A program made the translations under genes and the position numbers. Below, piece after piece: positions 412 to 40,898 of a stretch of DNA of 50,666 nt. The DNA is taken from contig JAAEOI010000386.1 of the NCBI GenBank assembly GCA_024244665.1, positions 1 through 50,666 of the forward strand. Reading direction: 5' to 3'. The first letter of the stretch is position 1. Each line of letters starts with the position of its first letter. Source of the DNA: Bacteroidota bacterium. GTDB lineage: Bacteria > Bacteroidota > Bacteroidia > Bacteroidales > GCA-2748055. Under the pieces are notes generated by a model. It was not told the DNA's origin, ran no database searches, and worked only from the letters and a program-made list of their open reading frames with translations.

Positions 412-428
412 ACCTGAAATTTTTCTGG

Positions 429-22410: not shown

Positions 22411-23421
22411 CTAACATACTTTTACAATTTCTATATCTAAAAGAGCGGCTAATTTTTCCAGCTTTGCTCCCACATGACCTATACCTACGGCACAATGGTG
22501 AGCCGGACCATTACTGTTCCATGTTTCCACAAATTTTCTAGCCCCAATGCTGAATTTGTAGCGACTGTTTGTATTTCCTATTTCAAGTATAGGCCCAGGC
22601 ACAGATTCAGCATGTGCATATACCAATTTCATTTTACCATTCTTGCTTTCAGCAACCGATAATAATGTTACATCTCCATGTTTTACCGACATTTCAACAG
22701 ATAGTCCCTCACCAAATTTACCATGATACACCTTTAAGGGCTTTACTTTAACTTTTCCCTGGGCAATTCCTAAATGTCCGGGACCGTCGTGCCCCATTAA
22801 AACTACATCGTCCTTAAAGTCGATCGCATAATATTCGGTGAACGAACCGCCAACACCAAAGCTGTCCATGATTTTCATGGCCATTACATTCTTTATTTCA
22901 TATTCTCCGGCAACAGGCACACCTTTGGCAGTAAGCAATGAATTTCCAACAATAATTGTACTCAAGGTATTTTTGTTTTCAGGAATACCCTCGCCCATAT
23001 AATAATATGCAATGGCTCCCAGTTTATGCTTATCAACCAAGCCTTGCAGGGCTAGTGCTGTTATTGCAGCTTTTTGCACCTCATCCTTTGCACAATCTTC
23101 CTGGACTTCAAACTCATCGTAAATAAGTTTTACCATTCGGTCTGTATCCTCAGATGACACCTCTTTACGCAGAGCTGAAAGCTCATCTACTTCAATGGTT
23201 TCATAATGTCCGCCAAAATGAGCCACCATATTGGTCAGGTCTGTTTGAATATCCAACATTCCATTATAGTAATACCCCATACAAGCAGTGCGATTATGGT
23301 ATAGTATATCTGCAACTTTTGCAGCCTCGACCCATTCTGTAACTTCCTCCCATAGTTTATCATCTTCTAAATGTCCGGTAATCTGATAGAAGCTGATTCC
23401 AACCAGGCTATTTAATTTCCT
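22411..23421 (-). pseudogene. 5'-truncated L-fucose/L-arabinose isomerase-type gene
   Basis: From the ATG at 23280 the frame encodes 289 residues, but similarity continues upstream without a Met: LVGISFYQITGHLEDDKLWE and TEWVEAAKVADILYHNRTAC precede MGYYYNG. The frame is open only back to a TAG at 23424-23422, inside the last codons of the preceding gene, whose stop is at 23408-23410. What remains matches the middle and C-terminal domains of COG2160-type sugar isomerases, including FGVGGSFTEYYAIDFKDDV, GHDGPGHLGIAQGK and the end AHHCAVGIGH...LEKLAALLDIEIV. The N-terminal Rossmann-like domain (about 150 residues) is absent. Such isomerases convert aldoses to ketoses in the cytoplasm. It is most likely a decayed gene; translation from a non-ATG start or use as a shorter domain is possible. 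Confidence 0.7.
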
Positions 23422-25447
23422 CTATTTCAGAGCTCTTATCACTTTTAACCGACTCTATTAATTCAGCAGCCGAACCGTTAAGCGTATTTCCTTCACTTAG
23501 AAAGATGGCGGAACCTTTTTTGGCTATAATACTCAATTGTTTTTCATCACTTCCGATCCATTTGTTACCCTCCAGCAGTATATTTTCTGATCCAGTAAAA
23601 TTCAAGGTCACCCCTTCAAATTCATTGTCTCTTAAAATGCAATTCAATGCATTGTCAAAATTGGCCTTGTCTAAATTATCACTGATGCGATTGTTCTCCA
23701 TAATAATATCACGTGGGCGCGGCCCATTCTGTCCTCCTATCCAATGGGGATGAAACCAGAAATGAAAATCTTCGAAATCATTGTTCTCAAGGGTAAGCCC
23801 CACACAACGGAAGCGTGTACTTGAATATTCCGTTCCAATGTCGGTAGTTTTGCAGTTACGAATAAGCGTACCCCTGTTCATACTTTCTTCATGTAAAACA
23901 ATATCATCGGGAGATGCACCCTTGGGCAAGGACTCCAATGTGACCTTGAAATTCTTCCCTTCTACATCTTCAACACGAAGCACACGAGCCATTCCTTTTA
24001 GGCGTTCCTGCTTTGGGGTCCAGATACTGGCCCAATCGCCTTCCCGCCATAAAAAAGGCTCCTTGCCCATAAAATTTGGAGTAATGCTTATGGTATTGTC
24101 CGACTGGTCAACAATTTTCAAGGCCCGGGAGTAGATGGCAAAGGTGTCATCGTACATACCCGCGCCATCCCAGTCACCATCTTCTATCAGTGTACCCCAA
24201 CGCCCGTTCTTGATATGCATGCCATCACGCCAGGAGACCAAAAGTTCTGTCTCAGGATTTGGGTTCTGAAGATCGACATTAGACAAGGTGACCGGCCCAG
24301 TATTGTGCTGAATTGTCAACCAGAAAAACGGCACACAATAATAGCGCAGGTTACTGAACTTAATTCGTGAACTGTGCATGATCTTGGTAAAACCACCCCT
24401 GTGACCATATTTTATATGAGGAACCACAAACTCAGTGGCTCCCTCATCATATGCTCTCTTCACACGACCTTGCATTGCTGCATCCGGAGTATGGCTTCCA
24501 TCGGCATTTTTCTTGAAATGTACACGCAATTGCCGTTCATTCCCTCTCTGAGTCACCACCTCCACGTAAATGTTGTTCCCGTCACCTGAACGGGCACCTG
24601 GAAAATCGGGAATAAAGGACCTTCCAAAAAAAGGTGCCTGGTATTGGTTTTTCCCTATTTCAGGCACAGGATAACGCTCCGGGACGTCAATATCCATAGT
24701 CATATTATCGACATCAATCTTCTTAATTTCCCCTTGATAGTAGGGACGTGGGAGATAATCGATAACGAAACCATCGATCTGAATATTCTCAGATTGTTCC
24801 ACCATAGCTAAGCCATCAGGAGGATGCAACAGCATCTTCGCACCGTTTCCTTCAATCTTAATTTTCCTGGCACCCCTAAGATCAAACACATATTCCTGCG
24901 TCATGTCTTTGAGGCCAATAACACGATAAGTTTTCCCTGCCTTAAAGCGAACAATTCCGACACCTGATTTTTTAGCGGCATCAACGGCTGCATGAATCGC
25001 CGCCATATCATCTGTTTCACCATCTCCATTTGCCCCAAAATCAGAAACCTCAAAAACCCTTGCCCCCGGAAATGTCGGCGTCGCAAATGCAATCATATAA
25101 CCGATCCTGTATTTTGTACCTGAAGAAGGCTTCACACTCACCTGAATATTTTCACCTGCGCCAAGTTCATCAATCCGGCATTCAAAACGGTGCACGGCTG
25201 TATTCCGAACCACATGATCTTTACGTATAACTTTTCCGCCTGCTGTTACTAATAACTCAACAGAACCTTCCGAAAGCACTTCAAGCCAGGCCTGCCCTAC
25301 CTGGTAATGTCCAGCTTCTTTGGCAACATAAGACCAATCCCGGGATTTATCTGAAACGGGTTCATCAATAGTAAAAACGGTAGTAGCTAGCACGCCTTTA
25401 GCTGTAATAGCCCAAAGGAACAGGATAATTATGGTCTTTAATTTCAT
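23408..25447 (-). CDS. secreted right-handed beta-helix protein (pair A, bare copy)
   Basis: 679 residues with a signal peptide (MKLKTIIILFLWAITAKGVLA) and no T9SS tail, so probably periplasmic. A small beta-sandwich (about 25-125) precedes FEVSDFGANGDGETDDMAAI, the standard start of the pectate-lyase-3/GH28-type beta-helix, which fills the rest. A candidate active site is W-R-D-G-M-H-I (Asp408) with E-D-G-D-W-D and Y-D-D-T-F-A-I (Asp433/434) about 25 residues later, recalling the NTDG...DD spacing of GH28. It shares both domains and these motifs with 37191-40898. It may be a glycan hydrolase or lyase; no CAZy family could be assigned. The sugar-isomerase fragment starts directly at its stop codon. 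Confidence 0.8.
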   Translation of the reverse strand: MKLKTIIILFLWAITAKGVLATTVFTIDEPVSDKSRDWSYVAKEAGHYQVGQAWLEVLSEGSVELLVTAGGKVIRKDHVVRNTAVHRFECRIDELGAGENIQVSVKPSSGTKYRIGYMIAFATPTFPGARVFEVSDFGANGDGETDDMAAIHAAVDAAKKSGVGIVRFKAGKTYRVIGLKDMTQEYVFDLRGARKIKIEGNGAKMLLHPPDGLAMVEQSENIQIDGFVIDYLPRPYYQGEIKKIDVDNMTMDIDVPERYPVPEIGKNQYQAPFFGRSFIPDFPGARSGDGNNIYVEVVTQRGNERQLRVHFKKNADGSHTPDAAMQGRVKRAYDEGATEFVVPHIKYGHRGGFTKIMHSSRIKFSNLRYYCVPFFWLTIQHNTGPVTLSNVDLQNPNPETELLVSWRDGMHIKNGRWGTLIEDGDWDGAGMYDDTFAIYSRALKIVDQSDNTISITPNFMGKEPFLWREGDWASIWTPKQERLKGMARVLRVEDVEGKNFKVTLESLPKGASPDDIVLHEESMNRGTLIRNCKTTDIGTEYSSTRFRCVGLTLENNDFEDFHFWFHPHWIGGQNGPRPRDIIMENNRISDNLDKANFDNALNCILRDNEFEGVTLNFTGSENILLEGNKWIGSDEKQLSIIAKKGSAIFLSEGNTLNGSAAELIESVKSDKSSEIEEIK

Positions 25448-25480
25448 TTTTTTAATTTGAGAGACTGTTCGATTCTTATA

Positions 25481-27487
25481 TTACTCCTGCACTACTCCTT
25501 TCGACCTCACAGCCTTGTATTGAACAGCTTCATACTGCCCTGAATCCAATTGCTTTCTATTATTTCGAATGACTACATCGCTTGTTGCTTCAAGCCCTAT
25601 GGCCGGGGAAGGACAATCAATGATGGTGTTTCCTTCAATGAGTAAGTTACGCGCACCTATGCTTTGTACAATTCCACCACCACGACGCTCAAATTTAAAG
25701 GATATCACTGGCTGGGTTGCATTTCCGTCAAACCCACAATCGTCGATGACATTGTTTCTGATAATGATCTCTGATGCATACAGTCCGTTGGGCCATGCTG
25801 TTTCATTCCTGAAATTGATAGCCATTGATGATGCTGATTTATACAAATTGTTTTCGATGAGACCTCTTTTTGCCCTGAAAACACTTCCATAACGACGTAT
25901 ATTGGTAAATTTTGAATTTCTGATGACAAACTCACCACAGGATTTTGAACGGTTCCATATCTGGGTACGATCCTGCAATTTGCTGGAGTTGGCATTTGCA
26001 TCCCAGCCTCCGTTCTTCTTCGGCTCATTGGCTTTTACCCTGGCAAGTTCTTCACCGGTAATCATATTGTTCGGCAGTTCATCACGAAACTCAACCAAAT
26101 ACCTCCCATCCTCTTGCTTTTGAACGTTTATCACTTCTGTTTCCAGCAAAATCTTTCCTTCCGTAGGTTCAAAAAATGAGACCTCATCACTCCTTGAAAA
26201 ATTAAAAAATACGGTGTCGCATAAAGCCACATTGGCATGGCCATTCGTTTTAGCCGAAGCTATAGCCACTGGGCGTGCATACAATGCCAGTCCATCATCT
26301 CCCAGTCCCTGTATATGTGTTCCTTCTATCCAGGGGCCCACTACATGCTCCCGGATATGCACACCATCAGCATTTCCCATCATCCATTTCCCTTCCTGCA
26401 TAATCGTATTGCAATGCAAAATATTGAAGTTTGAACCTTTCTTTGAAACAAAGCCCATTCCACCCCAACCATCAGTAGTCAGGTTGTATGCGGTTACATG
26501 TTTACTTTCCGGAAAATCAACATACATAGTTGAACCACTTCTAAAGTGATACACAAAACGTCCACCCTCTTCCCAGTCAGTAATATCGCCACCTTTATTG
26601 AGTTGAATCGTATAGCTTCCATCCTTAGTTTGCTCATAGCTATCCATTCGATAGAAGGTAGAACTTTTGTCCTTCAACCGACCATCCACATATGGATCTA
26701 AAAGGATAAATACATCCTGGGCAATGCTACCTGAAGCAGAAAAATCAGGTGATCCTTCCTCTAGTGCCACTGTAATTATCCGATTCTCCTCATCTACTTT
26801 GTTAATGTATCCCTGTACCCTGAAAATACCTTTGGCATAAGTAACTTCAAAACCACTAATAGAGATATTTTCACACTTTTCTGCATAAATCAGTCCTTGC
26901 TTACGATTTGAGAAATGAAGTGTAGCTCCGTTTCCTTCAATCTCTATATTTTTTACATTGTTGAGTTTGATAAGAGCGCTCTGGAGCTCTTCTCCAAAAT
27001 AATAGTCGCCTGCCGGGAATACCAATTTTACAGATCTACCCGCTGCAGCTAAATCTTCAGCTTGTTTTACAGCGGACTGTACAGCATCTGTGCAATCTTC
27101 CTTTCCTTCAGGGAGTGACACTGTAATAATTTCCTGTGCTTCTTTAATCGTAAAAGCTGTTGTTTCACTCCAGCCTGATATTTCTCCGTCGGAGGTAATG
27201 CTCCTTACCCGCCAGAAATATGTTCCTGCATCAAAAGGTCGATCGTGTACATAACGTGATAGCGCAATCGTATCCTGGTCGATAATACTGGAAAATGATT
27301 TGTCAGATGCAATCTGAATTTTATAAGACACCGGCATAGCCACATCGGCAAATTGTGCAGGATGATCTTCCCAATCAAAATTGTGGAATTTATATGAACT
27401 TGTTGGTCCTATATTTAAACCTTGCTCACATCCGGAAATACAAGTTATAAGCAGGCTCAACAAAACGATTGGTACAATGTTTTTCAT
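25481..27487 (-). CDS. beta-helix lipoprotein, GH28-like motifs (pair B, bare copy)
   Basis: 668 residues from the Met at 27487, chosen over the 5' end of the open frame (27595) because it places the lipoprotein signal MKNIVPIVLLSLLITCISGC (Cys20) at the N-terminus and avoids overlap with the upstream gene. A Fn3-like domain (about 25-135) precedes a right-handed beta-helix starting at ITVSLPEGKEDCTDAVQ. GNADGVHI (Asp374) and GLGDDGLALYAR (Asp397, Asp398) mirror the NTDG and G-D-D motifs of GH28 polygalacturonases with nearly the same spacing (23 versus about 21 residues); no clear G-H-G motif was seen. It is a tandem paralogue of 27555-31472 without that protein's LamG-like, DNRLRE and T9SS parts, implying a cell-bound version. 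Confidence 0.82.
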   Translation of the reverse strand: MKNIVPIVLLSLLITCISGCEQGLNIGPTSSYKFHNFDWEDHPAQFADVAMPVSYKIQIASDKSFSSIIDQDTIALSRYVHDRPFDAGTYFWRVRSITSDGEISGWSETTAFTIKEAQEIITVSLPEGKEDCTDAVQSAVKQAEDLAAAGRSVKLVFPAGDYYFGEELQSALIKLNNVKNIEIEGNGATLHFSNRKQGLIYAEKCENISISGFEVTYAKGIFRVQGYINKVDEENRIITVALEEGSPDFSASGSIAQDVFILLDPYVDGRLKDKSSTFYRMDSYEQTKDGSYTIQLNKGGDITDWEEGGRFVYHFRSGSTMYVDFPESKHVTAYNLTTDGWGGMGFVSKKGSNFNILHCNTIMQEGKWMMGNADGVHIREHVVGPWIEGTHIQGLGDDGLALYARPVAIASAKTNGHANVALCDTVFFNFSRSDEVSFFEPTEGKILLETEVINVQKQEDGRYLVEFRDELPNNMITGEELARVKANEPKKNGGWDANANSSKLQDRTQIWNRSKSCGEFVIRNSKFTNIRRYGSVFRAKRGLIENNLYKSASSMAINFRNETAWPNGLYASEIIIRNNVIDDCGFDGNATQPVISFKFERRGGGIVQSIGARNLLIEGNTIIDCPSPAIGLEATSDVVIRNNRKQLDSGQYEAVQYKAVRSKGVVQE

Positions 27488-27554
27488 GGACTTAAGTGTA
27501 TTACTAATGCTTTGCTTTTTCAAATTGTGTTTTCTCCTGTATATCTCACAAGTA

Positions 27555-30500
27555 TTAATGAACGATAATCTTCTCCAGGTACAATGCTGAATCATCTCTG
27601 ACTTTCAGAATATACAGACCTTTTCCCAGTGTATTTACCGGGATAGTCAGCTGATCACTTACATCCTTTCTGAACATCATGAGCTTGCCTGTCAGATCAA
27701 AGAGACTAAGATCTGCCTGTGAAATATTTATTAATTCTACGGTAAACTCCGAAGTTGCCGGATTGGGATACACCTTAATTTTACTTGTAGCAACCCGGAC
27801 TTCATCCTGAATGGACGTTATTACCCTGAATGAAACATGGATGGTACTATTGACCTTTACATCTGTAAATTCATAGCTATCTAGTGCCCCAAGTGAGACA
27901 CCATTTGCCAATACGTTCTCCACTTCATACCCGGGATCAGCGGTAAAGGTATAGGCTTGTGATCCGCCTTCCAGCACACTAATCTCCCCTGATGGAGAAA
28001 TGCTTCCGCCATTTCCGGCTGAGGCAGTTATTGTATAATAAACCGGATCCGGGGCCTTAATGATCAGGCTTGGGCTATTCATCCCTGATTCTTTCGAATA
28101 ATAGGTTGACATCACTTCATCGTTGCCTGCATCACTCAGCATTATTGATATTTTGCCGTCCCCACTACGCTCCATCTCTGCCTGGGCCGTAATATCAAAC
28201 TCGATCCAACTACCCACTGCAGGAGTGGTCCGGGTGCTCAACACAACTCCTTCCGATGGTTTATTTACCCAGGTAATACTTGTTTCTCCCCAGCTGTCAT
28301 CTGCAACAAACATTGCTTTGTGGGGCGTAGAATTTCCATTTATAGCCGCTAACCTTAGCTGCAGTTTTGCCGAAGTGATTGGATTCTCAATAGATGATAT
28401 ATCAAACCTTAAATAACTCTGTCGCTTATAGTCAGGAGTATCTGAAGTTTTAACCACCAGGCTTTCTGAAGCACCAAAATTAGTATTCTCATACTGGCCA
28501 GCATGCACATATGCATCTGCTTCCGGACTTATATCTTCAGCACCCGGTATTTTACTGAAAGTCACAGATATGCTTTGGTCAGATGCTACATTATTCAGGG
28601 TATAAACATCCAATGCTCCTTTTGAAATCCCATTCACAAGCACATCCTCAACCTTATAACCTGCGTTTGCACTGAAAGTGAATGTTTCACTATCTCCACT
28701 GAATAGCGTGACAGCTCCACTAGGTGCGATCGAACCATTGCTTCCCGCTGATGCAGAGATAATATGAATATCAGGACCTGGTACATACACGTTTTTCTCA
28801 GGGTTCACTTGCGTGCTGAAGTCAATATCTCTTGTACGCGTGGCAGAGAACTCTACATCATCCAACACATCACCCGAGAGAATCACAACATTATTTCGGA
28901 TCACCACATTTTCAGCTCCAATTAGCAAGATCTCCGGAGATGGACAGTCTTTAATAGCCTGACCTTCAATCAGGATGTTACGCGGACCAATACTATGTAC
29001 AACACTCCCTCTCCCTTCGAATACAAATGCAATAGGAGCCTGCGTTCCGGGTCCATCAAAGGAACAATCTTCAATGCTGTTATTGCGTACAATAATCTCC
29101 GAGGCATATAATCCATTGGGCCAGGCTGTTTCATTGCGAAAATGAATGGCTCGTGAAGAAGCACCGCGATATTCGTTGTTTTCTACAACACCACGTTTTG
29201 ACCTGAATACGTTGGCATAACGACGGTTATTGGTAAACTTACAATTTCGTATTATAAACTCGCCACACGATTTTGATCGGTTCCAAATCTGCGTGACATC
29301 TGTAAGCGGACTGCCCAAAATGATCCCCCCAGGTATGGTGTCGGCAAAGGTGGCCTTGTATGAACCTCCCAGGTCCATCACTTTTGTTACGCTTGTTTCC
29401 AGTAATATTCTTCCTTCACTTGGTTGAAAAAATGCAACCTCATCTCCTTCTTCCAAATTAAAATACTCACTTACACAAACAGCAGACTTTGGATCGCCTC
29501 CGGGATTCACTGCAGTCATTGCAATGCAGCGAGCATAAAATGCCAGTCCATCATCACCCGTTGCCTGTATTTCTGTGCCTTCTATCCAGGGTCCTACAAC
29601 ATGTTCACGTATATGCACACCATCAGCGTTCCCCATCATCCATTTCCCCTCCTGCATCACTGTTTTACAATTCAGAATATTGAAGTTTGAGCCTTTCTTG
29701 GAAACAAATCCCATAGCTCCCCAGCCATCAGTGCTGACATTATGCACTGTCATATTCTTTGATTCCCCGAAATCCACATGATGCGTTGAACCGCTTCTGA
29801 AATGATATACAAAACGATCTCCCACTTCCCAATCAGAAAAATCACCTCCCGCATTCACTTGTATTGTATAGGTTCCGTCCTGGTGATTCACATAACTGTC
29901 CTTCCTGTAGAAATTTGAAGATTGATCTTTTATGCGCCCATCAATATCCGGATCTAATAATATAAAAATGTCGTGGTCAGGGGCACTTGATGCTTCAAAA
30001 CCGGGAGATCCCTCCTCAACAGATACCTTAACGGTTCTGGTACTTTCATCAACTGTCAACACATGCCCCTGTACCCTGAATATCCCTTTAGCATAAGTAA
30101 CATTTATTCCACTGACAGAGATATTCTCACATGCCGTGGCTTCAATAAGTCCCTGGTTTCTTTTGGAGAGATGAAAAATTGCTCCGCTACCTTCAATCTC
30201 AATATCTTTAACGCCATTTAAACTGATCACTTCACCCACCAGGCTTTCTCCAAAATAATAGTCCCCTGCAGGAAAAAGCAGTTTCACTGAATTCCCGACA
30301 GATGCAGATGCCTCAGCCTGGGCAACTGAAGCCTGAATGCTTGCAGTACAATCTTCCTGTCCGCCGGGCAGCGATACAGTAATTACTTCCTGGGGCTCCT
30401 CAATGGTAAATGATACCGTATCCTGCCATTCTGAAATATTTCCGGCGTATGTTATGCTCCTGGTTCTCCAATAGTAGCTTCCCGGATTGAAAGGCTGGTC

Positions 30501-31472
30501 ATGCACATAGCGGGACAATAGTACCGTATCGTTGTCAATAATTGAGGAAAACTGTTCATCTTCAGCGATCTGAATTTCGTAACTGATCGGACTGGCCACA
30601 TCTGCAAATTGATCCGGATGATCCTCCCAGTCAAAATTTGGAAAACGATAAGTGCCGAAAGCAAGCTCCGGTTCTGAAATATCCAGGCTTACAACACTGG
30701 CCCAGGTAGATCCCAGTCTGAATTCATCGATACGCCCCAAACCTTTTGAAAATGCCAACCTGAAGGAATTAACACTTGTTGTCAGGCTTCCTCCTGTTGC
30801 TTCATAGTCCCAAATGAATGTATCATCGTTTGCAGGAACTGCATCTCCCTCTTTAAAAGCAGAAACCTTCACACTTACCTGTGCATTATCATACTGGTAT
30901 TGGGCAACGATGAAATAGTCAACATCATTTTCAATGATACCCGGATCACTCTGCGTGGTAACCGCTCCCCAGCCGGCAGTATTCCCGACATTCACCTTTA
31001 ATCTTCCATCGGGAGTTATGCCCACAGCAAAACCAGCTGCTGCACCGCTTGAAGTTAGACCGTCGATCCTGTAGTTCCCGTTAGCGTCTTTTTTTGTCAG
31101 AAAAGAGATATAAAAAGTTGTCGTTTCCTCCCCCAATTTCACCGGGTTAAGTAATTGACGGCTCACTCCCTGCCCGAAAGGTGATGAAGAGTAAGCGTGA
31201 CCTCCTGTAGCAGGCAGCTCTACAGATGAAGGGTAATCCAGACTTGAAGGAGAAATGCTTACCGTACCATTTGCAACAGGCACTTGCCAGCTTTCGCTCC
31301 ACCCCATGCCTGAAATGCCATTAACTGCACTTATTGGTGAACCAAAAATATCAAAGTCATCATATACATAGACACTATCATAGGAGGAATTAATTACAAT
31401 CTCTCCAGCTTCTGCAATATGGTAACTTGCAGCAAAAATGACAATGCTCAGAAATAATCGCAGATATCTCAT
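27555..31472 (-). CDS. modular T9SS-exported beta-helix protein (pair B, long copy)
   Basis: 1305 residues. Order: signal peptide 1-22; LamG-like module about 28-270; Fn3-like about 275-360; right-handed beta-helix about 365-880 with GNADGVHI (Asp617) and ATGDDGLAFYAR (Asp640/641); InlB B-repeat-like domain about 904-975 (ISASAGSNGSIAPSGAVTLF); DNRLRE/CBM96-like carbohydrate-binding domain about 978-1137 (EADAYVHAGQYENTNFGASE); second InlB-like repeat about 1140-1215; T9SS type A sorting tail from VYPNPATSEF (about 1231) to the end. The catalytic module is paralogous to 25481-27487. The tail predicts surface or extracellular placement, so it likely makes the first cuts in the polymer. The start follows directly after the stop of the sulfatase gene, with no gap. 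Confidence 0.85.
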   Translation of the reverse strand: MRYLRLFLSIVIFAASYHIAEAGEIVINSSYDSVYVYDDFDIFGSPISAVNGISGMGWSESWQVPVANGTVSISPSSLDYPSSVELPATGGHAYSSSPFGQGVSRQLLNPVKLGEETTTFYISFLTKKDANGNYRIDGLTSSGAAAGFAVGITPDGRLKVNVGNTAGWGAVTTQSDPGIIENDVDYFIVAQYQYDNAQVSVKVSAFKEGDAVPANDDTFIWDYEATGGSLTTSVNSFRLAFSKGLGRIDEFRLGSTWASVVSLDISEPELAFGTYRFPNFDWEDHPDQFADVASPISYEIQIAEDEQFSSIIDNDTVLLSRYVHDQPFNPGSYYWRTRSITYAGNISEWQDTVSFTIEEPQEVITVSLPGGQEDCTASIQASVAQAEASASVGNSVKLLFPAGDYYFGESLVGEVISLNGVKDIEIEGSGAIFHLSKRNQGLIEATACENISVSGINVTYAKGIFRVQGHVLTVDESTRTVKVSVEEGSPGFEASSAPDHDIFILLDPDIDGRIKDQSSNFYRKDSYVNHQDGTYTIQVNAGGDFSDWEVGDRFVYHFRSGSTHHVDFGESKNMTVHNVSTDGWGAMGFVSKKGSNFNILNCKTVMQEGKWMMGNADGVHIREHVVGPWIEGTEIQATGDDGLAFYARCIAMTAVNPGGDPKSAVCVSEYFNLEEGDEVAFFQPSEGRILLETSVTKVMDLGGSYKATFADTIPGGIILGSPLTDVTQIWNRSKSCGEFIIRNCKFTNNRRYANVFRSKRGVVENNEYRGASSRAIHFRNETAWPNGLYASEIIVRNNSIEDCSFDGPGTQAPIAFVFEGRGSVVHSIGPRNILIEGQAIKDCPSPEILLIGAENVVIRNNVVILSGDVLDDVEFSATRTRDIDFSTQVNPEKNVYVPGPDIHIISASAGSNGSIAPSGAVTLFSGDSETFTFSANAGYKVEDVLVNGISKGALDVYTLNNVASDQSISVTFSKIPGAEDISPEADAYVHAGQYENTNFGASESLVVKTSDTPDYKRQSYLRFDISSIENPITSAKLQLRLAAINGNSTPHKAMFVADDSWGETSITWVNKPSEGVVLSTRTTPAVGSWIEFDITAQAEMERSGDGKISIMLSDAGNDEVMSTYYSKESGMNSPSLIIKAPDPVYYTITASAGNGGSISPSGEISVLEGGSQAYTFTADPGYEVENVLANGVSLGALDSYEFTDVKVNSTIHVSFRVITSIQDEVRVATSKIKVYPNPATSEFTVELINISQADLSLFDLTGKLMMFRKDVSDQLTIPVNTLGKGLYILKVRDDSALYLEKIIVH

Positions 31473-33020
31473 TTAGTACCAGTATCCTGCATTCCTGCAG
31501 ATTTCAAAACGCACTTCCCAATTGCTCATGGCCTCTTCCCAGCTAACTCCCAATCTGTCAACCTCAGCCTTTATCTTTTCATATTGTTTGGGTCTGAATT
31601 CTCTGAATTTCTCCCAATCCATTTCCTTTACTCCTGACTGAGCGTATTTCTGATAGGGCCTGTAGTCAATTTCAGCGGGGTATTTTTCCCTCCAGGCATC
31701 AAATAAAGCACGGGCTTCTTCAACCTGTCTAACATATGCGCTATCGGAAATCAGATTATTGGATTCCATCGGATCCTTTCTCAAATCGTAGAATTCCTCA
31801 ACAACCGGATCCAGATCTATCCACCGGGCATACTTGGTAGTTTTTGTTCGTACCCCATCATTGCGGGGAATATATATGGGTGCTGTTGGTGAAACAAAAT
31901 GTTCAAAAAAGAAATGCTCTCTCCCTGTGGTCTCAGCTCCATTAATTATGGACTTTAAACTTTGACCATCCATGGTTTCCGGAGCCGGTACACCTGCCAG
32001 GTCGAGCAATGTTGGCGCTACATCAATATTTAATACCAAAGCTTCAGAAACGCTCCCTTTTGCTTTTGAACGTGGATCATAAACAATAAAAGGGATCCTC
32101 AGACTTTGATCATAGGGTGACCATTTCGCACCCAGCTGCTTCTCCCCAAAATGCGTCCCATGATCAGACAAATAGATAATCACCGTATTATCTGCCACTC
32201 CTTTTTCTTCCAGCATCTTAGTAATCTCACCAATGGAACGCTCCACGCTCATGATCTTTTCATAATAATGACTCACATAAGTCTGCATCTTTTCATCTGT
32301 ACCAAACATGGTATTATAACTCCGGTTACCATAACCCGTCTGAACAAATTCCGGCAATTTTGCATGCTCCTCAGGAGTATCGGTTGATACCCTGGTAAAA
32401 GGAAATTCAGCCAATTTTCCTTCATCTTCAGGAGCTGGCACTGAAGTAGGGTGAGGCTCTTTGTAGTTGAGCTGTATGCAAAAAGGTTGTTCCCCAGGTA
32501 CACTATCTAAAAAATCGTTGGCCATTTGAGTTAACCATGCTGCATCATGCAAAGTATCTCCCTTATATACCCTGAAAGCAGGTCCCTGAGAAGTGGTAGC
32601 ATCATAAAAATCAAAGCTGGCTATTTGCTCTTTCGTTATCCCAAAACCGTGTTTACCAAACAATCCCAGGTAATATCCTGCATTACTTAACTGTGCCGGG
32701 TAGCTTTGGGCAAATGATTCCTCAGGAAGGGGTTTTTGAAATCTTTTTACCTGGTGATGGGACATATATTGTCCGGAAAGCAAACAGGCTCTCGACACAC
32801 CACAAATGGGAGACACGACAAATCCCTGATTAAAACGAATACCCTCTGTTGCCAATCGGTCTATATTTGGGGTTTCAATCGGACAGGCTTCGTCATAACA
32901 CGACAATGTTTGTGTGCGCTGGTCATCGGTGTAAACAATGATAAAATTGGGTCGTTCAGGTGTTTTTGCACATGCACCACACATGAGAACTACTGCCAGA
33001 ATTATATAAATATGTTTCAT
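31473..33020 (-). CDS. sulfatase (S1 family), lipoprotein
   Basis: 515 residues, lipoprotein signal with Cys17 (VLMCGACAK). The fold starts RPNFIIVYTDDQRTQTLSCY (metal Asp32, Asp33). The site that is converted to formylglycine is C-G-V-S-R at 73-77 followed by ACLLSGQY: the third position is Val, not the canonical Pro or Ala. Later motifs are FGKHGFG, TVIIYLSDHGTHFGEKQLGAKWS (metal/acid residues) and the C-terminal FYDLRKDPMESNNL typical of sulfatases. It should remove a sulfate ester early in degradation, between two beta-helix genes. It is clearly divergent from the sulfatase at 12362, so a different regiospecificity is expected. Neighbour spacing (0 bp and 35 bp) supports one operon. Confidence 0.92.
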   Translation of the reverse strand: MKHIYIILAVVLMCGACAKTPERPNFIIVYTDDQRTQTLSCYDEACPIETPNIDRLATEGIRFNQGFVVSPICGVSRACLLSGQYMSHHQVKRFQKPLPEESFAQSYPAQLSNAGYYLGLFGKHGFGITKEQIASFDFYDATTSQGPAFRVYKGDTLHDAAWLTQMANDFLDSVPGEQPFCIQLNYKEPHPTSVPAPEDEGKLAEFPFTRVSTDTPEEHAKLPEFVQTGYGNRSYNTMFGTDEKMQTYVSHYYEKIMSVERSIGEITKMLEEKGVADNTVIIYLSDHGTHFGEKQLGAKWSPYDQSLRIPFIVYDPRSKAKGSVSEALVLNIDVAPTLLDLAGVPAPETMDGQSLKSIINGAETTGREHFFFEHFVSPTAPIYIPRNDGVRTKTTKYARWIDLDPVVEEFYDLRKDPMESNNLISDSAYVRQVEEARALFDAWREKYPAEIDYRPYQKYAQSGVKEMDWEKFREFRPKQYEKIKAEVDRLGVSWEEAMSNWEVRFEICRNAGYWY

Positions 33021-33055: not shown

Positions 33056-36000
33056 CTAATTGGATTTTACTAGTTTATACCTGGCTCCATTTCTCTCATC
33101 AAAAAGGATGTATATACCTGAACTCCAATCAGACAGATCGATATAATTTGTATTTATGCACTTCTTTATCATACTTCCGGTTTGTGTAAACACGTTAAAA
33201 TCTGAATACCTGGAAAAAGTAAACATGCCATTTACACTCGGATTTGGATATACCTTCATGTCATTATCAATAGCAGCTTGAGGCACTGATTGTACCGTCG
33301 TATCAGGGACATTTTGCAACTCAAATTGAACATTGACACAATTGTCGTCAACAATCAACAATTGATCTTTGGAAAGCCTGTTATCCAAAACCTGGTTGCC
33401 TGTCCCGCTAACATTTTCCGAGTTGCTGACGTGTATTCCTATTTCAAAATCCTCATCTGAATAAACAGACCATTCATCAATGGTGTTGGTGATTAAGTTA
33501 TTTTCCAGGATCACATTTTTGGCATAATCGATCTGGATGGCTTCATCCCTGAAATTATCAATGATATGATTGTTCCTGATCAGAATATTCTCATTGTAAA
33601 TACTCCCGGTTTCCCAGTCAGGTCTGTTCACGTTGGTATTTAGTCGTATTCCTCTCCAGTTGGGGCGCCTGATAATGTTCCCCTCAACCAGCACCACATC
33701 GGGCATGGTACCCGGATCACTGGGTGCATACCCAATATGTATCCCGGATTGACCAGCATATTCAACAACATTATCAGCCACCCAGGTACGGTCAGCCTGC
33801 ACCCAGACGCTGTTTCGGTATGCACCTATCAGGCTGTTTTTTCGGAATACAGATCCCTTTCCTGCATTGCTGCCATTATGAAACATATCGTCGCGTGAAT
33901 ACTCATAGCGGTTTCCTTCGTACCACACATTGTCTCCCCGATCCACGCCAACCCCACCTGAAGAACTACCCATGATACGGCCCTGTGTACGCAGATAGTT
34001 GTTATTCAAACACCGGCTATTGCTACAACCCGCATCTATTGCAAAATAACGTCCACGAGAAGCATGTGTTGTCATATTATTCAGAACAAAATTATCTACC
34101 CCCGAACTCAGAAAAACAACATCTCCTCCCCGGTGTGACAGCACAAAATAGTCTCCATCTTCCAGTTCATCCTTGTAGCGACCGTACTCGGAGCTCCCGC
34201 AGGTAAACTTGAAAGTTGTATCGTTCACACGTGCCTGCTCCCAGGTTTCCTCCATTTCAAAATCCACCCCTTTCAATCCTATTTTCTGGCTATGCTCGCT
34301 GCTCAGAAAATAACCTTCTGTATAGTGTTTCAGCACATCATAGGTTTTATATACTGAGGTATCCACAATCACTTCAAAGGTCCGAGCTTCCTTATTGAAA
34401 TTTTTAACGACACCACCTATCTGGTACAGGGAATTCGGATGGTAATCAATAATGATATCCTTCACCTGCATACCTCTGCTGTTATTCACCTCCATAAAGC
34501 CACAGAGCCATTCTCCATGTGTAGCTTCAATGGTGATTTTGGAACCGCGTCCGTTTACCAGTACATGATCGTATCCATCCACATACAATAAAAAGCCATT
34601 ACTTCTTGATCCCTCATCACTGACCGGATCCTGGCGTACATTGAATTCACCGTCTATTGGAAATCTTAATTCAACGGCACCCGGGGTCGTTTCGGAAAGG
34701 CTTAATACCGTTTGCCATTTGCTGCGTATCTCATCCCAGCCATCTCCCGGAAGAACATCCACAATAGCTTCGGGCTGGTTGATCCGGAAAGAGTTAATCC
34801 TGGACCAACCACCTTCAGAAACAGATTCATTGTTTACAAAGCGCAGTCTCCAGTAATAGATCGTATTGTACTCCAACTCAAAGTCAGGACAATAATAATT
34901 GATAAATACAGGTACGGTATCCGCATCAAGCGGGGAGCTAAAATCGCTGTGATCATCAATCTCTATTTCATAATACCCGGAAAAAGGGCCCGTATGTTGA
35001 TGAGTCCATGAGAAAAACGGAATAGTCTGGTACAATGTCGCCCCGTTTCCCGGCACTTCAGCATATATACCTGAGGGATTCAGCACAGTTAACACTGCCG
35101 TATTACTTTTCATGGATACCCCATCATCGTTGTATGCTGCAACATTGAAATAGTATGCCGGGTTTCTATATTCTGCTGTTACCTCATGACTTGTAATATC
35201 AGCAGCAGTTCGTGCAAGCTCAGAACCATCTTTGTAAATTATATATCCTTTTTCATTGTCTGAGTTATCTGTCCAATTCAGCTGAACAGGGGACTCCGGC
35301 ATTTGATTGCTGACTGTATCCGGATCAATTGCAAGATTCGTTGCAGCACTTATCGATCCCAGCCAGGCAGTGCCACTTGTAACACTCTGCAGGGTTGAAC
35401 CCAGACGAAGTTCATCTATCTTCACATTCCCCTGTGAAAATATAAGCTGAAACCTATCCATCTCAACACCACTCTTTCCTGATTCAGATACGATCCAGTT
35501 CACAGCAGCAGGATCAGCAGGAATAGCATCACCCTCTTCAAACAATGCTATTTTATTTACCTGGCCCTCTTTTGCCAGTACAAGCAAGTAGGTAAGATCA
35601 TTAGCAAATGAGCCATCCTCCGAAGGATCGCTCCAATTGGCTGAAGCCCTCACCTCCATGCTACCTGGTTCATTGATACGTAGGCCATATCGGGCATAAC
35701 CGCCTCCAAAGCCCAGTAAAGTGAAAGATCCGGAGGCATCTTTCTGAACAAGTAAAGACAGGTAAAAAGTGGAATTCAATAATCCGTAGGTATTGGCAAA
35801 AGAACGTTCAATGCTGCTTTGTCCGTTTGAAGTATGTTCGATGTATCCCCCGGATCCACTGGCACCTGTACCTGAAGGGTATGAAAGACTTTCGGTTTCC
35901 GTAACACTGATGGCAATAGAAGCATCCGAAGTATATGCCCACCTGCCTGACCATCCTGCTCCCGAGATACCATTATCATTGTCATGCAACAGGCTGCCGG

Positions 36001-36127
36001 TAATATCAAAATCATCGTATACATACAGGGTGTCCTTATCGGTATTGATGATAATATTTTCAGCATGCACCTGCGATACAATTGCCACAAGCATTAAAAC
36101 GATGGTATGGAAATAATTATATTTCAT
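33056..36127 (-). CDS. modular T9SS-exported beta-helix protein (type C)
   Basis: 1023 residues: signal peptide 1-22 (to QVHA); LamG-like module about 28-250 (DDFDITGS...GISGAGW); a Fn3 domain about 258-350; a second beta-sandwich about 352-448; a right-handed beta-helix about 455-920; T9SS type A tail from VYPNPSVNGMFTF to the end. The helix has parallel-beta-helix turns NNYLRTQGRI, GNRYEYSRDDMF and NVVEYAGQSGIHIGYAP. A D-D pair in SRDDMFHNGS is the only acidic feature resembling the other helices. It is not obviously a paralogue of the A or B pair beyond the LamG-like module and tail. It may be a lyase or hydrolase on the polysaccharide surface. The gap to the upstream gene is 5 bp. Confidence 0.8.
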   Translation of the reverse strand: MKYNYFHTIVLMLVAIVSQVHAENIIINTDKDTLYVYDDFDITGSLLHDNDNGISGAGWSGRWAYTSDASIAISVTETESLSYPSGTGASGSGGYIEHTSNGQSSIERSFANTYGLLNSTFYLSLLVQKDASGSFTLLGFGGGYARYGLRINEPGSMEVRASANWSDPSEDGSFANDLTYLLVLAKEGQVNKIALFEEGDAIPADPAAVNWIVSESGKSGVEMDRFQLIFSQGNVKIDELRLGSTLQSVTSGTAWLGSISAATNLAIDPDTVSNQMPESPVQLNWTDNSDNEKGYIIYKDGSELARTAADITSHEVTAEYRNPAYYFNVAAYNDDGVSMKSNTAVLTVLNPSGIYAEVPGNGATLYQTIPFFSWTHQHTGPFSGYYEIEIDDHSDFSSPLDADTVPVFINYYCPDFELEYNTIYYWRLRFVNNESVSEGGWSRINSFRINQPEAIVDVLPGDGWDEIRSKWQTVLSLSETTPGAVELRFPIDGEFNVRQDPVSDEGSRSNGFLLYVDGYDHVLVNGRGSKITIEATHGEWLCGFMEVNNSRGMQVKDIIIDYHPNSLYQIGGVVKNFNKEARTFEVIVDTSVYKTYDVLKHYTEGYFLSSEHSQKIGLKGVDFEMEETWEQARVNDTTFKFTCGSSEYGRYKDELEDGDYFVLSHRGGDVVFLSSGVDNFVLNNMTTHASRGRYFAIDAGCSNSRCLNNNYLRTQGRIMGSSSGGVGVDRGDNVWYEGNRYEYSRDDMFHNGSNAGKGSVFRKNSLIGAYRNSVWVQADRTWVADNVVEYAGQSGIHIGYAPSDPGTMPDVVLVEGNIIRRPNWRGIRLNTNVNRPDWETGSIYNENILIRNNHIIDNFRDEAIQIDYAKNVILENNLITNTIDEWSVYSDEDFEIGIHVSNSENVSGTGNQVLDNRLSKDQLLIVDDNCVNVQFELQNVPDTTVQSVPQAAIDNDMKVYPNPSVNGMFTFSRYSDFNVFTQTGSMIKKCINTNYIDLSDWSSGIYILFDERNGARYKLVKSN

Positions 36128-36132
36128 TCAAT

Positions 36133-37194
36133 TCATTTTTTTGTTCTACTCAACTCTAAGTATGATTTTGCCATACGCTTCCCAATTTCCTCCTGGGAGG
36201 CAGTATTGTAATGAATCCTTTTTCTTTGATCGATCTCAATATCAAGAAGCTCATTTTTTTCAAGGAATATATTTTGAGTATTGAATATGATACCAGGAGC
36301 CTGTAAAGAGGTCACATTCACAAACCGATCTCCTTGAATTAGTCCCTTTAGTTCATATTCCCCGGCACAATTGCTTACATCAAAATGCGTGCATACTTCC
36401 TTGTAATCCACACCCTGAAGTCCTGATTCAACTACAAGTCCCGAAAGGGGTTTCCCTCGCACATTACGCACAATGCCCGAGATGGAATATGTTCCAGGTT
36501 TATCCCTGATCACTTCTTTATACCATTCAACTACAAAATCAGCTTCATCACTCTCATAGTTCATCCATTTGTCTGTGTAGGTAATTTTTTGCCCATTCAC
36601 GGGATTGGTAAACAGTTCATCCTGTGGTATAATCCGGGGAATGGGTACTGAAAGCATGGTAATTTTTCCCGAAGTATCTACACCGCTTGTTGAAATATAT
36701 CCAGCCACACTATCCATATGCTGTCCGCCCACCAGCGCAGCACGACCCTTAAAACGTGTCGCACGCTCTATGGCTGAAACCCTGTATGCATTGTAATCGC
36801 AGTTGTGGGCCCAATTGGTACACCATGCCCTGTGACCATCATAATGATCGTGCGAATGAAAACCCAGCCAGATATCCGCTGCCCTGTCATCATTTAAACC
36901 AAGTCGGTTCACAGCTATTGCACCCCTTGAGAAACCTGTAATAAAAACCGAAGATGGATCACCTCCATAGTTCAGACAAATATCCTTTACTTGCCTGGCA
37001 CAATAGTCAATCGTTTTTGTTTCGCTGCCCCACCAGGTGAGCTCACTCCTCATTCCATCTGCAATCACTCTTACTCTTTTACCAGCTGCAGCATGCCCTA
37101 CAAGCATCTCAGGAGTTTCAAAAGACTTTTGAGCGTAAAGCGATTCACATGAAATAAGAGAAATTAAGCATAATATATGCAACCAGGTATTCAT
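36133..37194 (-). CDS. esterase-like alpha/beta-hydrolase with C-terminal CarboxypepD_reg-like domain
   Basis: 353 residues with a signal peptide (about 1-21, possibly a lipobox at LISC). The middle carries the nucleophile elbow G-F-S-R-G in SSVFITGFSRGAIAVNRLG, DHYDGHRAW, and a late His region, matching a Planctomycetota/Bacteroidota esterase-like family. The C-terminal about 90 residues (ISGIVRNVRGKPLSGLVV) form a carboxypeptidase-regulatory-like beta-sandwich. Compared with my memory of family members, the segment between AGKRVRVIADGM and WWG is very short: the strand and loop with the oxyanion hole seem missing, as if by in-frame deletion. It may remove acyl groups from the glycan or may be inactive. 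Its ATG overlaps the upstream stop (ATGA). Confidence 0.7.
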   Translation of the reverse strand: MNTWLHILCLISLISCESLYAQKSFETPEMLVGHAAAGKRVRVIADGMRSELTWWGSETKTIDYCARQVKDICLNYGGDPSSVFITGFSRGAIAVNRLGLNDDRAADIWLGFHSHDHYDGHRAWCTNWAHNCDYNAYRVSAIERATRFKGRAALVGGQHMDSVAGYISTSGVDTSGKITMLSVPIPRIIPQDELFTNPVNGQKITYTDKWMNYESDEADFVVEWYKEVIRDKPGTYSISGIVRNVRGKPLSGLVVESGLQGVDYKEVCTHFDVSNCAGEYELKGLIQGDRFVNVTSLQAPGIIFNTQNIFLEKNELLDIEIDQRKRIHYNTASQEEIGKRMAKSYLELSRTKK

Positions 37195-40100
37195 CTGATC
37201 ACTTTTGCTGAATACAACTTATTATCGTATTGATATCGAATAATCTTAACTCCTGTACTCATATTTATTCTGGAGTCTGCAATGAAATAGGGAAAGGCCT
37301 CAACAGAGTCCAGATAAATACATCTTCCCAATATATCGGTAATGGTAACAATCCCTCCATATCCCGGACCCAGTAATTTAATTCCATCAGGTAAATATTG
37401 TACCTGTAGTTCCCCTGAGTCAATAGATTTCTGGTTGACACCTGTTGGATCATAGTCTTCGTCGAAGGTTACCGACTTATATGAAGTGCCGATGAGGATC
37501 TCATCCAATTTCACAGTGCCATCTTCAATGGTAATAATCAGTCTGTCCTGATCCACACCGGTAGCCATTGGATCACTTTCTACATCCCAGGCAATATTTG
37601 AATCGTCAGCAGGAAGTTGATCTCCAGTATTGAATACTTTCACACTTGTAACAGCCGAATTTCCACCGCTGTTTGTAAATTTTACAAGCACAAATTGTGT
37701 GGTGTCATTTTGAAACACTTCACTAACACTGCTCTTTTCCCCTGTACTGCTTTGAGCAATCACCGACCCATTCGCCGTCACTTCAATACTGAAGCGACTA
37801 TAATTACTGCTGTTATTCGTTGCGATTTTAAATGCCCCGCCGGCACTTTTTTGAGCCAGGAAGGACATGTAATAGGTGCCACCTGCTAAACTAAAAGGTG
37901 ATTCCAACATACGCTCATTGCTTGCAAAACCCTGTGTTTGCATAATACGCCCACCTGCAGTATTCATTTCAATACCTTCAGGATACGCAAGACTTTTTTG
38001 CTCATCAAAACCTATACCAGCGCCACTTGCATTCCAATTACCTCCCCATCCATTGCCAGACCCATTATTGGTGATTGACATTCCTGTGAAATCAAAAGGC
38101 TCATCAGCATATACCAGATCCTGGGGCTGAGCCATTTCCGGCAAAAATGGAGGAGCATAAGATGGATATACTTCCGGTTGAGAGAAGTTGATCGTGGAGC
38201 TTATATCCTTATTGTACTTCTCTTCCAGGGCAGAAGCATCTCCATTATAGGCATATTCTCCGAACACATAGGCATTTGAAGCAGAACGAAGCTTAATGGC
38301 ATCACCAGTAATATTTGTAAAATAGATGCTATCCATGACAATACGCGGACAATTATTCACATCCACCTGCCCAACATTGATGGTGCAATTCTTTATATTC
38401 AGGTTCCATGTATCATCCACATTGAATGTACTTCTCTCGTTGATATAGCAGTTGTCAAATTTCACATGGCGTGGACGTGTGCGCCATGGTTCCCCGCAAT
38501 AGGTCCAGAAATGTATACTCTGAAAGTCACAGTCCTTATACAAAACAGGCGTACGTTGACGCACGGCAGTGCTTCGTCCCTTTGGAGTAGTGGTGCATCT
38601 GCGGATCACCATATCCCTGTTGATGATCTCTTCGTTTATCGCGTACATCCCTGCTTGCACCTGGGAAAGAGTACTGTCCAGCGTAATATCCAGAAACCTG
38701 GGATTATCAGTTTCGGCAACTACTGTAACTCGTGCCATACCATAATACTCCATCTGACTTTCATCCCAGAAACTAACCAGATCACCCACCTGCCATACCA
38801 TCTTATCTGTATATTTTTGAGGGGACTCTCCAGTTTTGCTTTGCAGGTGAATTATATTTCCTGAAGTACTTTCCACTACAGGCACATTACTATGCGGACT
38901 AAAAATATCGTCATAAGTATATCCTGCATCAAAATCCCCATCTTCAATCATTATACCGTAACGGTTTGCCCATACATGCCAGCCATCACGCCAATTCACG
39001 TGCATATCTTCAGGATGTGGGGCAAGCATATCTGTATTTGAAAAAGTGATCGGACCATAGTTGCTTCCGATGGTATATCCAAAATGGCATACCGAATGTG
39101 TAAGGATATTACTGATCTTTACCCTGCTGCTTCGTTTGATCCCACAATAAGGCGAATCCCTGTATCCGTTTGTGTGTCCGTAATCTCTGTCTGGGATAAT
39201 ATAATCTGTGGCATTCTGGTTTTTCGAGTGCTGCAAGTCAGCTGTTTCATGGTCCTGTAAAAACACCCTGATCGCATGATCATCCTCACCAATCCGGGCT
39301 GTACTATCCACGGATAAATGTCTGCCATCTCCCATTTTTGTTCCCGGTAGGGTAATCCAGAAGCTTCGCCCAAAAATATCTTGAATTTGCCTGTATTTCC
39401 CGGTAACAGGGGCATCATATCTTGCATCCACCTGCATATCAAGGTAAAGATCCCCGACATTCATCGCCGTAATGTCGCCCTGAAAATAAGGCAGGGGATC
39501 ATAGGTTGTAGTGAATCCGTCAATGTGTATATTCTCAGAATTATCCATCCTGATAAAATTTCCTTTAGGGTGCAGGATGATTTTAGCACCGTTCCCCTCA
39601 ACCTTGATGTTTGAAGCATTTAAAAAATCAAACATGGCATAGTTTTCAGGACCTTCAATAAAGTATGTTTTTGATCCGTCGAAACTGACAATTCCGCCTC
39701 CTGCATCCTCTGCAGCAGCACATGCATCCTTCACAGCCTGGAAATCATTTGTAGCCCCATCTCCTACTGCGCCAAAAGACGCAACATTATATTCTGGCAA
39801 ATCAGCAAAGGTTGGTGTCGCAAAAGCTAAACGGTAACTCAGCTTGTAGGCGGCCCCGTTTTTTGGTGTTGCAGAAACACTTAGCTGCTCTCCTATAGCA
39901 AGATCCTCCATGCGGGTCTCAAAACGGTAGGGTGCCGTGGTCGACTCAGCCGTGAATGATTTGATGGTTTTGCTTCCCCGCTTTACCTCCAGGTCCACTT
40001 CTCCATCCGTGCCATCTACCCATATCCATGCATATCCAAGCTGGTAATTACCTGCTTCGGCAACTTCATAGGTCCATGCCTCTTCTTCAGTTGTTGATTC

Positions 40101-40898
40101 CTGGTATACCGCCTGTACATCACTGTTAGCTTGTTCAACCTCCTCTATTTCAGGAAAAGCTGAAGCAATATCCGTGGTACTTACACTTTTCCAGGTATCC
40201 CCTACTTTTAGCTCATCAAGACAAATTGTTTTGTTAGTGAAGGCCAGGCGAAAATAATCAATGGCCACCATCCCTGTGGCTGCACCTTCTGCTTCCAGAT
40301 CCCAGCTGGCAGGCTCCTCTACAGGAACAACATCATCTACACTATATACCGAAATATTCATATTTGGTTTAGTAGTGTAATAATACTTGGCTACCACAAG
40401 GTAGGTTTGATCATTTTGAACAAAACTTTCAGAGGACAATACGGTACCATTGTAGTCGGTACCTGCCTGTGCACCCAATTTCCCATCCTCCCTGATATGT
40501 ATTCCGAAGCGATCAACGCCATCTTCACGAGTACCACTGATTCTGAATATGCCGGAGCTGTTTTTCTTGAACAAGAAAGAAACATAATAGGTGGATCCAA
40601 CAAATTTGATTGGATTCAGGAGGTAACGGCTTATACCAAAAGCGCCTTTGGTGGTATAGATATACTCATCCCCGAGAGCAACACCATCCGAATGACCGGT
40701 TTGGTAGGTCCAGTTATCACTCCATCCTGAACCTGTCGATCCGTTATTATTAGTCAGTACAAAACCATCAATTGCAAAATTATCTTCTACATATAAGGAA
40801 TCCTTTGATGTATTAATTGAGATATTATCGGCATATGCTTTTTGTGCAAGCAGGCTAAATAACACGATCCCACAAATATATATATTATTGATTTTCAT
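37191..40898 (-). CDS. modular T9SS-exported beta-helix protein (pair A, long copy)
   Basis: 1235 residues: signal peptide 1-24; LamG-like module 1 about 30-245; beta-sandwich about 260-365 (VYQESTTEEEAWTYEVAEAG); right-handed beta-helix about 370-900 starting at YNVASFGAVGDGATNDF; LamG-like module 2 about 929-1140; T9SS-type tail about 1155-1235 (ITDILGRCIYLDS...GVKIIRYQYDN), an atypical version without a VYPNP motif. W-R-D-G-W-H-V (Asp638) and Y-D-D-I-F (Asp663/664) align with Asp408 and Asp433/434 of the bare paralogue at 23408-25447. The presence of two LamG-like modules suggests it binds the insoluble or polymeric substrate outside the cell. The upstream gene ends 12 bp before its start. 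Confidence 0.82.
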   Translation of the reverse strand: MKINNIYICGIVLFSLLAQKAYADNISINTSKDSLYVEDNFAIDGFVLTNNNGSTGSGWSDNWTYQTGHSDGVALGDEYIYTTKGAFGISRYLLNPIKFVGSTYYVSFLFKKNSSGIFRISGTREDGVDRFGIHIREDGKLGAQAGTDYNGTVLSSESFVQNDQTYLVVAKYYYTTKPNMNISVYSVDDVVPVEEPASWDLEAEGAATGMVAIDYFRLAFTNKTICLDELKVGDTWKSVSTTDIASAFPEIEEVEQANSDVQAVYQESTTEEEAWTYEVAEAGNYQLGYAWIWVDGTDGEVDLEVKRGSKTIKSFTAESTTAPYRFETRMEDLAIGEQLSVSATPKNGAAYKLSYRLAFATPTFADLPEYNVASFGAVGDGATNDFQAVKDACAAAEDAGGGIVSFDGSKTYFIEGPENYAMFDFLNASNIKVEGNGAKIILHPKGNFIRMDNSENIHIDGFTTTYDPLPYFQGDITAMNVGDLYLDMQVDARYDAPVTGKYRQIQDIFGRSFWITLPGTKMGDGRHLSVDSTARIGEDDHAIRVFLQDHETADLQHSKNQNATDYIIPDRDYGHTNGYRDSPYCGIKRSSRVKISNILTHSVCHFGYTIGSNYGPITFSNTDMLAPHPEDMHVNWRDGWHVWANRYGIMIEDGDFDAGYTYDDIFSPHSNVPVVESTSGNIIHLQSKTGESPQKYTDKMVWQVGDLVSFWDESQMEYYGMARVTVVAETDNPRFLDITLDSTLSQVQAGMYAINEEIINRDMVIRRCTTTPKGRSTAVRQRTPVLYKDCDFQSIHFWTYCGEPWRTRPRHVKFDNCYINERSTFNVDDTWNLNIKNCTINVGQVDVNNCPRIVMDSIYFTNITGDAIKLRSASNAYVFGEYAYNGDASALEEKYNKDISSTINFSQPEVYPSYAPPFLPEMAQPQDLVYADEPFDFTGMSITNNGSGNGWGGNWNASGAGIGFDEQKSLAYPEGIEMNTAGGRIMQTQGFASNERMLESPFSLAGGTYYMSFLAQKSAGGAFKIATNNSSNYSRFSIEVTANGSVIAQSSTGEKSSVSEVFQNDTTQFVLVKFTNSGGNSAVTSVKVFNTGDQLPADDSNIAWDVESDPMATGVDQDRLIITIEDGTVKLDEILIGTSYKSVTFDEDYDPTGVNQKSIDSGELQVQYLPDGIKLLGPGYGGIVTITDILGRCIYLDSVEAFPYFIADSRINMSTGVKIIRYQYDNKLYSAKVIR

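Follow-up and report, generated by a model that had tools for sequence, protein, structure and literature searches.

Predicted GH110-related beta-helix proteins, in long and bare forms, in a rhamnosidase-rich polysaccharide utilisation locus of a Bacteroidota-type bacterium

The window analysed here, the whole stretch of 50,666 nucleotides of contig JAAEOI010000386.1, comes from a bacterium of Bacteroidota type and makes up a polysaccharide utilisation locus; five of its genes encode proteins with a beta-helix module. Judged by profile comparisons and predicted structures, these modules are related to glycoside hydrolase (GH) family 110, the inverting alpha-1,3-galactosidase family. Taken together, they would be GH110-related inverting hydrolases of a rhamnose-containing sulfated polymer, with the work divided between the cell surface and the envelope; we give this account as a whole a probability of roughly 60%. 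The five genes are listed below, where T9SS stands for the type IX secretion system and 'DDF' for a module described later.

37191..40898, minus strand: T37; signal peptide (by eye), 'DDF' module, GH110-like beta-helix at residues ~275-903, second 'DDF' module, C-terminal tail
33056..36127, minus strand: T33; 'DDF' module, FN3, Ig (Rha78A_N-like), GH110-like beta-helix, weak T9SS tail
27555..31472, minus strand: T27, long form; 'DDF' module, weak Ig, GH110-like beta-helix, InlB-like region, CBM96/DNRLRE, T9SS type A tail
25481..27487, minus strand: L25, bare form; lipoprotein (lipobox by eye), Ig, GH110-like beta-helix
23408..25447, minus strand: B23, bare form; signal peptide (by eye), N-terminal beta domain, GH110-like beta-helix

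The L25 family matched the GH110 profile at 8.4e-24, with a best stretch of 515 profile positions, and the B23 family at 3.5e-12 in two stretches. T33 gave no direct match to GH110 in the profile search, and 85.6% over 127 columns in another comparison; it reaches GH110 solely through the L25 family, to which L25 itself belongs and T33 is related (hhalign, 99.8%). The closest solved structures for L25 and B23 were those of GH110. The fold was assigned from models in case of B23 and T33. The confident AlphaFold model of B23 is a right-handed beta-helix as in 7jw4 and 8pvs, with more than 500 residues aligned with GH110 and a structural match near full length for the helix part; fold prediction had been proposed as a check in an earlier reading of this DNA from its letters alone (the sequence-only reading). 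The fold is not a new one. A careful, unrooted tree was built from 28 rows, with just four GH110-type references, none of them characterised; in it the references formed one clade (100/100), while B23/T37 (100/100), L25/T27 (98/97) and T33 (100/100) each formed a separate one. The GLAA-B barrel domains I and II were matched by Pfam in both references from genome G488, two of the four references being scanned. Domain II was found in 3 of 35 L25-family rows at E<=0.01 (best 0.0013), L25 itself having none, and neither domain was matched in any of the 50 B23-family rows.

The rows were taken from the best 120 of 126 B23 relatives considered, including the window's own record P0002 (37 of 119 in alignment A1, 49 of 119 in A4), from 83 L25 relatives, including the window's own P0121 (34 of 72, P0122-P0193, in A2; the ten weak rows P0194-P0203 were dropped), and from 23 T33 relatives, 17 of which went into A3 after removal of five weak rows and the window's own record.

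In PdGH110B, D344 is the likely acid and water is activated by D321 and/or D345 (PMC7939477). In the alignment the equivalents of these three residues are all Asp in L25, T27, B23 and T37 (D410/D433/D434 in L25, in the numbering of the 704-residue open reading frame, and D408/D433/D434 in B23). The triad is invariant in the L25 family (35/35 rows); all 38 B23-family rows have the Asp-Asp pair, and their remaining position is Asp in 33 and Gly in five. The pair, D746/D747 in T33, is also kept in the T33 family (18/18), the first Asp is replaced by Gly in all 18 rows, and the insert after the pair is absent from T33. The sugar contacts are altered as well. The position of N348 is occupied by Ala in L25, T27 and B23 and by Ser in T37, and those of E488 and R453 by Asn and Tyr in L25/T27; all four references have Asn, Glu and Arg, respectively. 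R451 and W486 are unchanged in L25/T27, and in B23/T37 the stretch of R451, R453 and W486 is not conserved or not reliably aligned. Read from the alignment, the galactose-binding -1 subsite (N348, R453, E488 and others) is thus not that of GH110.

As far as the fold and the Asp positions tell, the modules would resemble GH110 in their workings, and we infer that GH110 chemistry is retained on a sugar other than galactose; they are accordingly read as putative inverting alpha-glycosidases rather than lyases. Because of the subsite residues and the tree placement, they are not filed as members of GH110. The sequence-only reading had recognised no known lyase, rightly, and had considered backbone-cutting enzymes of new carbohydrate-active enzyme (CAZyme) families. 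The modules are nevertheless recognisable as GH110-related, and this kinship makes hydrolysis likelier than lyase chemistry. Of the idea of new families, the supposed lack of kin is lost, and what is left are three clades beside GH110 with changed galactose contacts.

The same reading had paired T27 with L25 and T37 with B23, each type being encoded in a long and a bare form. Both pairings are real. Residues 274-883 of T27 are 61% identical to L25 over 635 residues. T37 (residues 275-903) and B23 are related (34% over ~654 residues, E 1e-106 or lower) but deep paralogues in the tree, therefore the description of one module encoded twice holds well for T27/L25 only. Nor does the rule cover every type: with T33 the T9SS beta-helix proteins number three, and for this one no bare partner was found in the window.

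The modules ascribed to T27 were recovered in part: CBM96/DNRLRE (3e-41) and the T9SS tail (PF18962, 7e-13; 49.1 bits, the cut-off of the type A sorting domain being 27) are clear, and the InlB-like repeats matched weakly, under the family cut-off (PF18998, E 7e-4). T33 reached 24.7 bits for the type A domain as a whole protein and 28.3 bits with the tail alone (cut-off 27). The T9SS tail claimed for T37 was recognised neither in the whole protein by Pfam and NCBIfam nor in the last 122 residues by Pfam at E<=10, and is T9SS-like by eye alone. L25 can be called a lipoprotein as proposed, with the lipobox ISGC seen by eye, given a start at codon 37, that is at position 27487 of the window rather than 27595. 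The window's own L25 record (P0121, 668 residues) is consistent with this position, which is probably the start within the longer frame 25481..27595. In a crude scan a lipobox was found in 12 of 71 L25 relatives. B23 is indeed bare: apart from a signal peptide, seen by eye, it carries no additional module. Its own database record (P0002) has 562 residues only; since relatives such as P0001 and P0003 (672-707 residues) align over 99-100% of B23, the long start is favoured. The proposed exterior and envelope locations would suit T27/L25, by their architecture and their separate, long-maintained tree lineages, and suit T37/B23 less well.

The age of the pairs was followed in two quick trees, with 35 of 71 L25 relatives (P0122-P0192) and 50 of 119 B23 relatives; both gave long-branch and composition warnings, and the G488 pair was among the L25-tree rows warned. 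T27 groups with P0139 (1232 residues, CBM96, T9SS tail) at a Shimodaira-Hasegawa-like (SH-aLRT) support of 100 and is 72% identical to it over 1134 residues; the two adjoin 15 rows of 666-730 residues, L25 among them. Since T27 goes with P0139 and L25 with the shorter forms, the duplication is old and both copies have persisted; this placement of P0139, beside T27 instead of the shorter forms, led to the rejection of a recent duplication. For P0139, for the L25-type P0126 and for the T33-type P0206 the longest contig has one size, 21214, which suggests that the three lie on one contig. T37 stands well away from B23, in a group with P0119, which carries the T37 N-terminal module. All three T33 relatives bearing an organism name come from Cyclobacteriaceae bins.

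In G488 only 3 bases lie between a long form (891 residues; Laminin_G_3 at 33.6 bits, T9SS tail at 21.8 bits, cut-off 27) and the bare form of 586 residues behind it, and a sulfatase-like gene (by eye) comes next. The two forms are 42% identical, each is the nearest row of the other, and the careful tree joins them at 100/99; a similar pairing has therefore arisen independently. In loci L020 and L021 of this genome (C72) two GH110-type genes, each with both GLAA-B barrel domains, lie within 27 kb together with the long/bare pair and the sulfatase-like gene. L25-type modules are rare in the genomes sampled, being found in 1 of 395 genomes of one phylum sample (E<=1e-20) and in 7 of 396 of one order sample (E<=1e-15), with at most three candidates scored per genome among the matches listed. 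A scan of genome contigs with L25 gave two remote loci only. The B23-family profiles gave partial matches only, in G255 and six of these genomes, and their best match (1.1e-23, 127 of 697 positions) was the G488 bare form.

The genetic setting points towards rhamnose. Open frames are present wherever the sequence-only reading had placed a gene. From 43954 down to 23408 all genes lie on one strand with intergenic gaps of -4 to 118 bases, which is consistent with a single operon. In the Pfam scan, which covered 22 window proteins, rhamnosidases were the dominant class; a SusD was found at 48592-50409 and no SusC among the proteins scanned. The scanned genes include two GH106 (19340, 16202), two sulfatases (31473, 12362) and two GH78 (4127, 13818), one of the latter clear and one divergent. 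The neighbours of the five genes are as follows.

43954..47646, minus strand: G43; two 'DDF' modules, Big_5, FN3, CBM9, weak T9SS tail
40911..43835, minus strand: G40; 974 residues
36133..37194, minus strand: E36; alpha/beta-hydrolase-like, weak polyhydroxyalkanoate-depolymerase-type match (E 3e-4)
31473..33020, minus strand: sulfatase (PF00884, E 2e-47)
22411..23280, minus strand: isomerase fragment; arabinose/fucose-isomerase-type, C-terminal part, N-terminal domain missing
19340..22495, minus strand: GH106 alpha-L-rhamnosidase (E 3.5e-203)
16202..19333, minus strand: second GH106 alpha-L-rhamnosidase

Gene fusions were sought among 226 database proteins. In P0009 a GH106 end (97 residues, 59% identical to 19340) precedes a B23-type module; this protein has no initial Met and lies on a contig of 2742 bases, therefore its start is missing. 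In P0050 a G40-type region (28% over 482 residues) precedes a B23-type module, the two alignments overlapping by 77 residues, and an E36-type domain follows a B23-type module in P0035 and an L25-type module in P0150. G40 gave no clear sequence match in Pfam, NCBIfam or PDB, and since the relative of its C-terminal half is fused in P0050, G40 might belong to this pathway as a new enzyme. Besides the window, five contig sizes were common to the L25 and B23 families, compared with 0.09 on average and never more than 1 in the shifted controls (n=100); the comparison used clusters whose longest contig exceeds 10 kb and takes equal size alone as the sign of co-residence. The T33 list in this comparison included three contigs of weak non-members, with no match. 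A sulfated rhamnose-containing polymer is suggested by the fusions and the co-occurrence, and by the presence of rhamnosidases and sulfatases in the locus. The substrate would thus probably be a rhamnose-rich sulfated polysaccharide rather than one of galactose, the bond cut not being indicated by the fusions.

Some further features of the locus were noted. The isomerase-type protein at 22411-23280 has 289 residues and lies 127 bases from 23408. At the locus end (1-4130, minus strand) there are two 3-keto-disaccharide-hydrolase-type domains (1-411, 3294-4130) and GFO/IDH oxidoreductases (429, 1866), which suggests a 3-keto-sugar route. A protein of 1743 residues with HZS_alpha and Mala_s_1-like matches is encoded on the opposite strand (7123-12354, plus) between sugar-degradation genes.

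Six copies of the 'DDF' module (~205-240 residues) occur in four exported-type proteins:

30687-31403, minus strand: T27
35375-36058, minus strand: T33
40176-40829, minus strand: T37
37467-38123, minus strand: T37
46951-47565, minus strand: G43
45406-46098, minus strand: G43

They share conserved F, N, GxGW and W and are 27-38% identical to the first copy. These regions had been called LamG-like, in T27 as well as T37, a label without sequence support, since none of the six copies had a significant match to LamG or another family in Pfam or PDB. By sequence comparison 'DDF' is a real shared module to which no family could be matched, perhaps a new carbohydrate-binding module.

Three other explanations have to be weighed against GH110-related hydrolases of a rhamnose-containing polymer. 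The modules might be ordinary GH110 alpha-galactosidases whose target is a galactan portion of the polymer or its galactose side groups, with the active-site differences tolerated. The nearest solved structures and the kept Asp triad would suit this, and PMC12549532 has GH110 enzymes acting beside sulfatases on lambda-carrageenan and a -1 subsite residue, E480, that already differs between GH110A and GH110B. However, N348 and, in L25/T27, also E488 and R453 are all replaced, the reference rows stand apart at full support, and the 22 scanned proteins, in which rhamnosidases dominate, gave no match to an agarase, carrageenase or complete galactosidase family; we consider this explanation unlikely. 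Beta-helix lyases or epimerases cutting a uronic-acid-containing rhamnan or ulvan-like backbone are suggested by the structural comparison, where alginate epimerases and polysaccharide lyases rank among the best matches, by the first ~70 residues of the B23 helix, for which mannuronan epimerases are the best match, and by the failure to match any known backbone-cutting enzyme among the scanned genes. These structures align over ~260-333 residues, compared with 429-516 for GH110, four of the five modules have the triad in the aligned positions of GH110, and GH88/GH105 were unmatched among the 22 scanned proteins. Since structural coverage and Asp positions favour GH110, the lyase explanation was set aside as improbable.

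The long T9SS proteins, at least T33, could also be binding or scaffold proteins with an inactive helix, leaving the bare forms as the sole enzymes. The Gly in the T33 family, the absence of the insert and the wealth of extra modules in the T9SS proteins speak for it. T27 and T37 have the complete triad, however, and in the T33 family the Asp-Asp pair and many other polar residues are invariant in 18 of 18 rows, something hardly to be expected of an inactive enzyme; this possibility seems to us quite improbable.

According to the favoured model of GH110-related hydrolases, all five modules would be inverting alpha-glycoside hydrolases, T33 possibly being a descendant with an altered active site, and the three clades outside the GH110-type references would act on a rhamnose-containing sulfated polysaccharide. 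In two types the T9SS-exported multi-domain form would attack the polymer first, at the cell surface, its extra modules holding the polymer, and the bare lipoprotein or periplasmic form would later trim imported oligosaccharides in the envelope together with the GH106 and GH78 rhamnosidases and the sulfatases. A bolder version is tentative and rather less likely: three new GH families beside GH110 cleaving alpha-linkages of a sulfated rhamnose-rich polymer, two of them doubled for surface and envelope, the T33 type working with Gly for Asp, and the doubling repeatedly parallel.

To our knowledge, enzymes opening rhamnose-rich sulfated polysaccharides are sparsely known. The three clades adjoining GH110, without a known characterised member, provide a shortlist of candidates with named catalytic residues, tied by gene fusion to GH106, the G40 protein and the E36 protein. 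Since the doubling arose at least twice independently among the sequences compared, the long/bare pairs can be used to test why surface and envelope copies are kept.

Among known systems, the AlyA1 and AlyA5 enzymes of Zobellia are reportedly members of one CAZyme family present in modular secreted and membrane-bound forms in a single bacterium. They differ from the modules in being PL7 jelly-roll lyases, of which one acts endolytically and the other exolytically. A review lists both as intracellular (PMC9181867) and so does not support the secreted and membrane-bound locations. The G488 pair (Bacteroidota by search group, locus L020) shares the adjacent long and bare GH110-like forms and the sulfatase-like gene, and differs in its independent duplication, in the Asn and Glu kept at N348 and E488 and in its position near two GH110-type genes. 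Among the papers listed in literature searches, some of the lists being capped, none was by its title and start of abstract about GH110-like enzymes in a rhamnose locus, which is no proof of absence; one of them, a Reichenbachiella paper, names GH110 and ulvan (PMC10752948). The Asp-based inverting machinery is common to GH110 and the clan GH-N type beta-helix hydrolases (GH28, GH49, GH87), according to PMC7939477, but the structural match of our modules to the latter is weaker and less complete than to GH110. With GH110 itself (PdGH110A/B, AgaBb, Akkermansia 8pvs, PpaGal), of which the enzymes described in PMC7939477 and PMC12549532 remove terminal galactose, the modules share the beta-helix fold, the aligned Asp triad and the profile matches of the L25 and B23 families. 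They differ from it in their low identity (12-18%), separate clades and changed galactose contacts, as well as in their T9SS-type multi-domain forms and rhamnosidase-rich setting.
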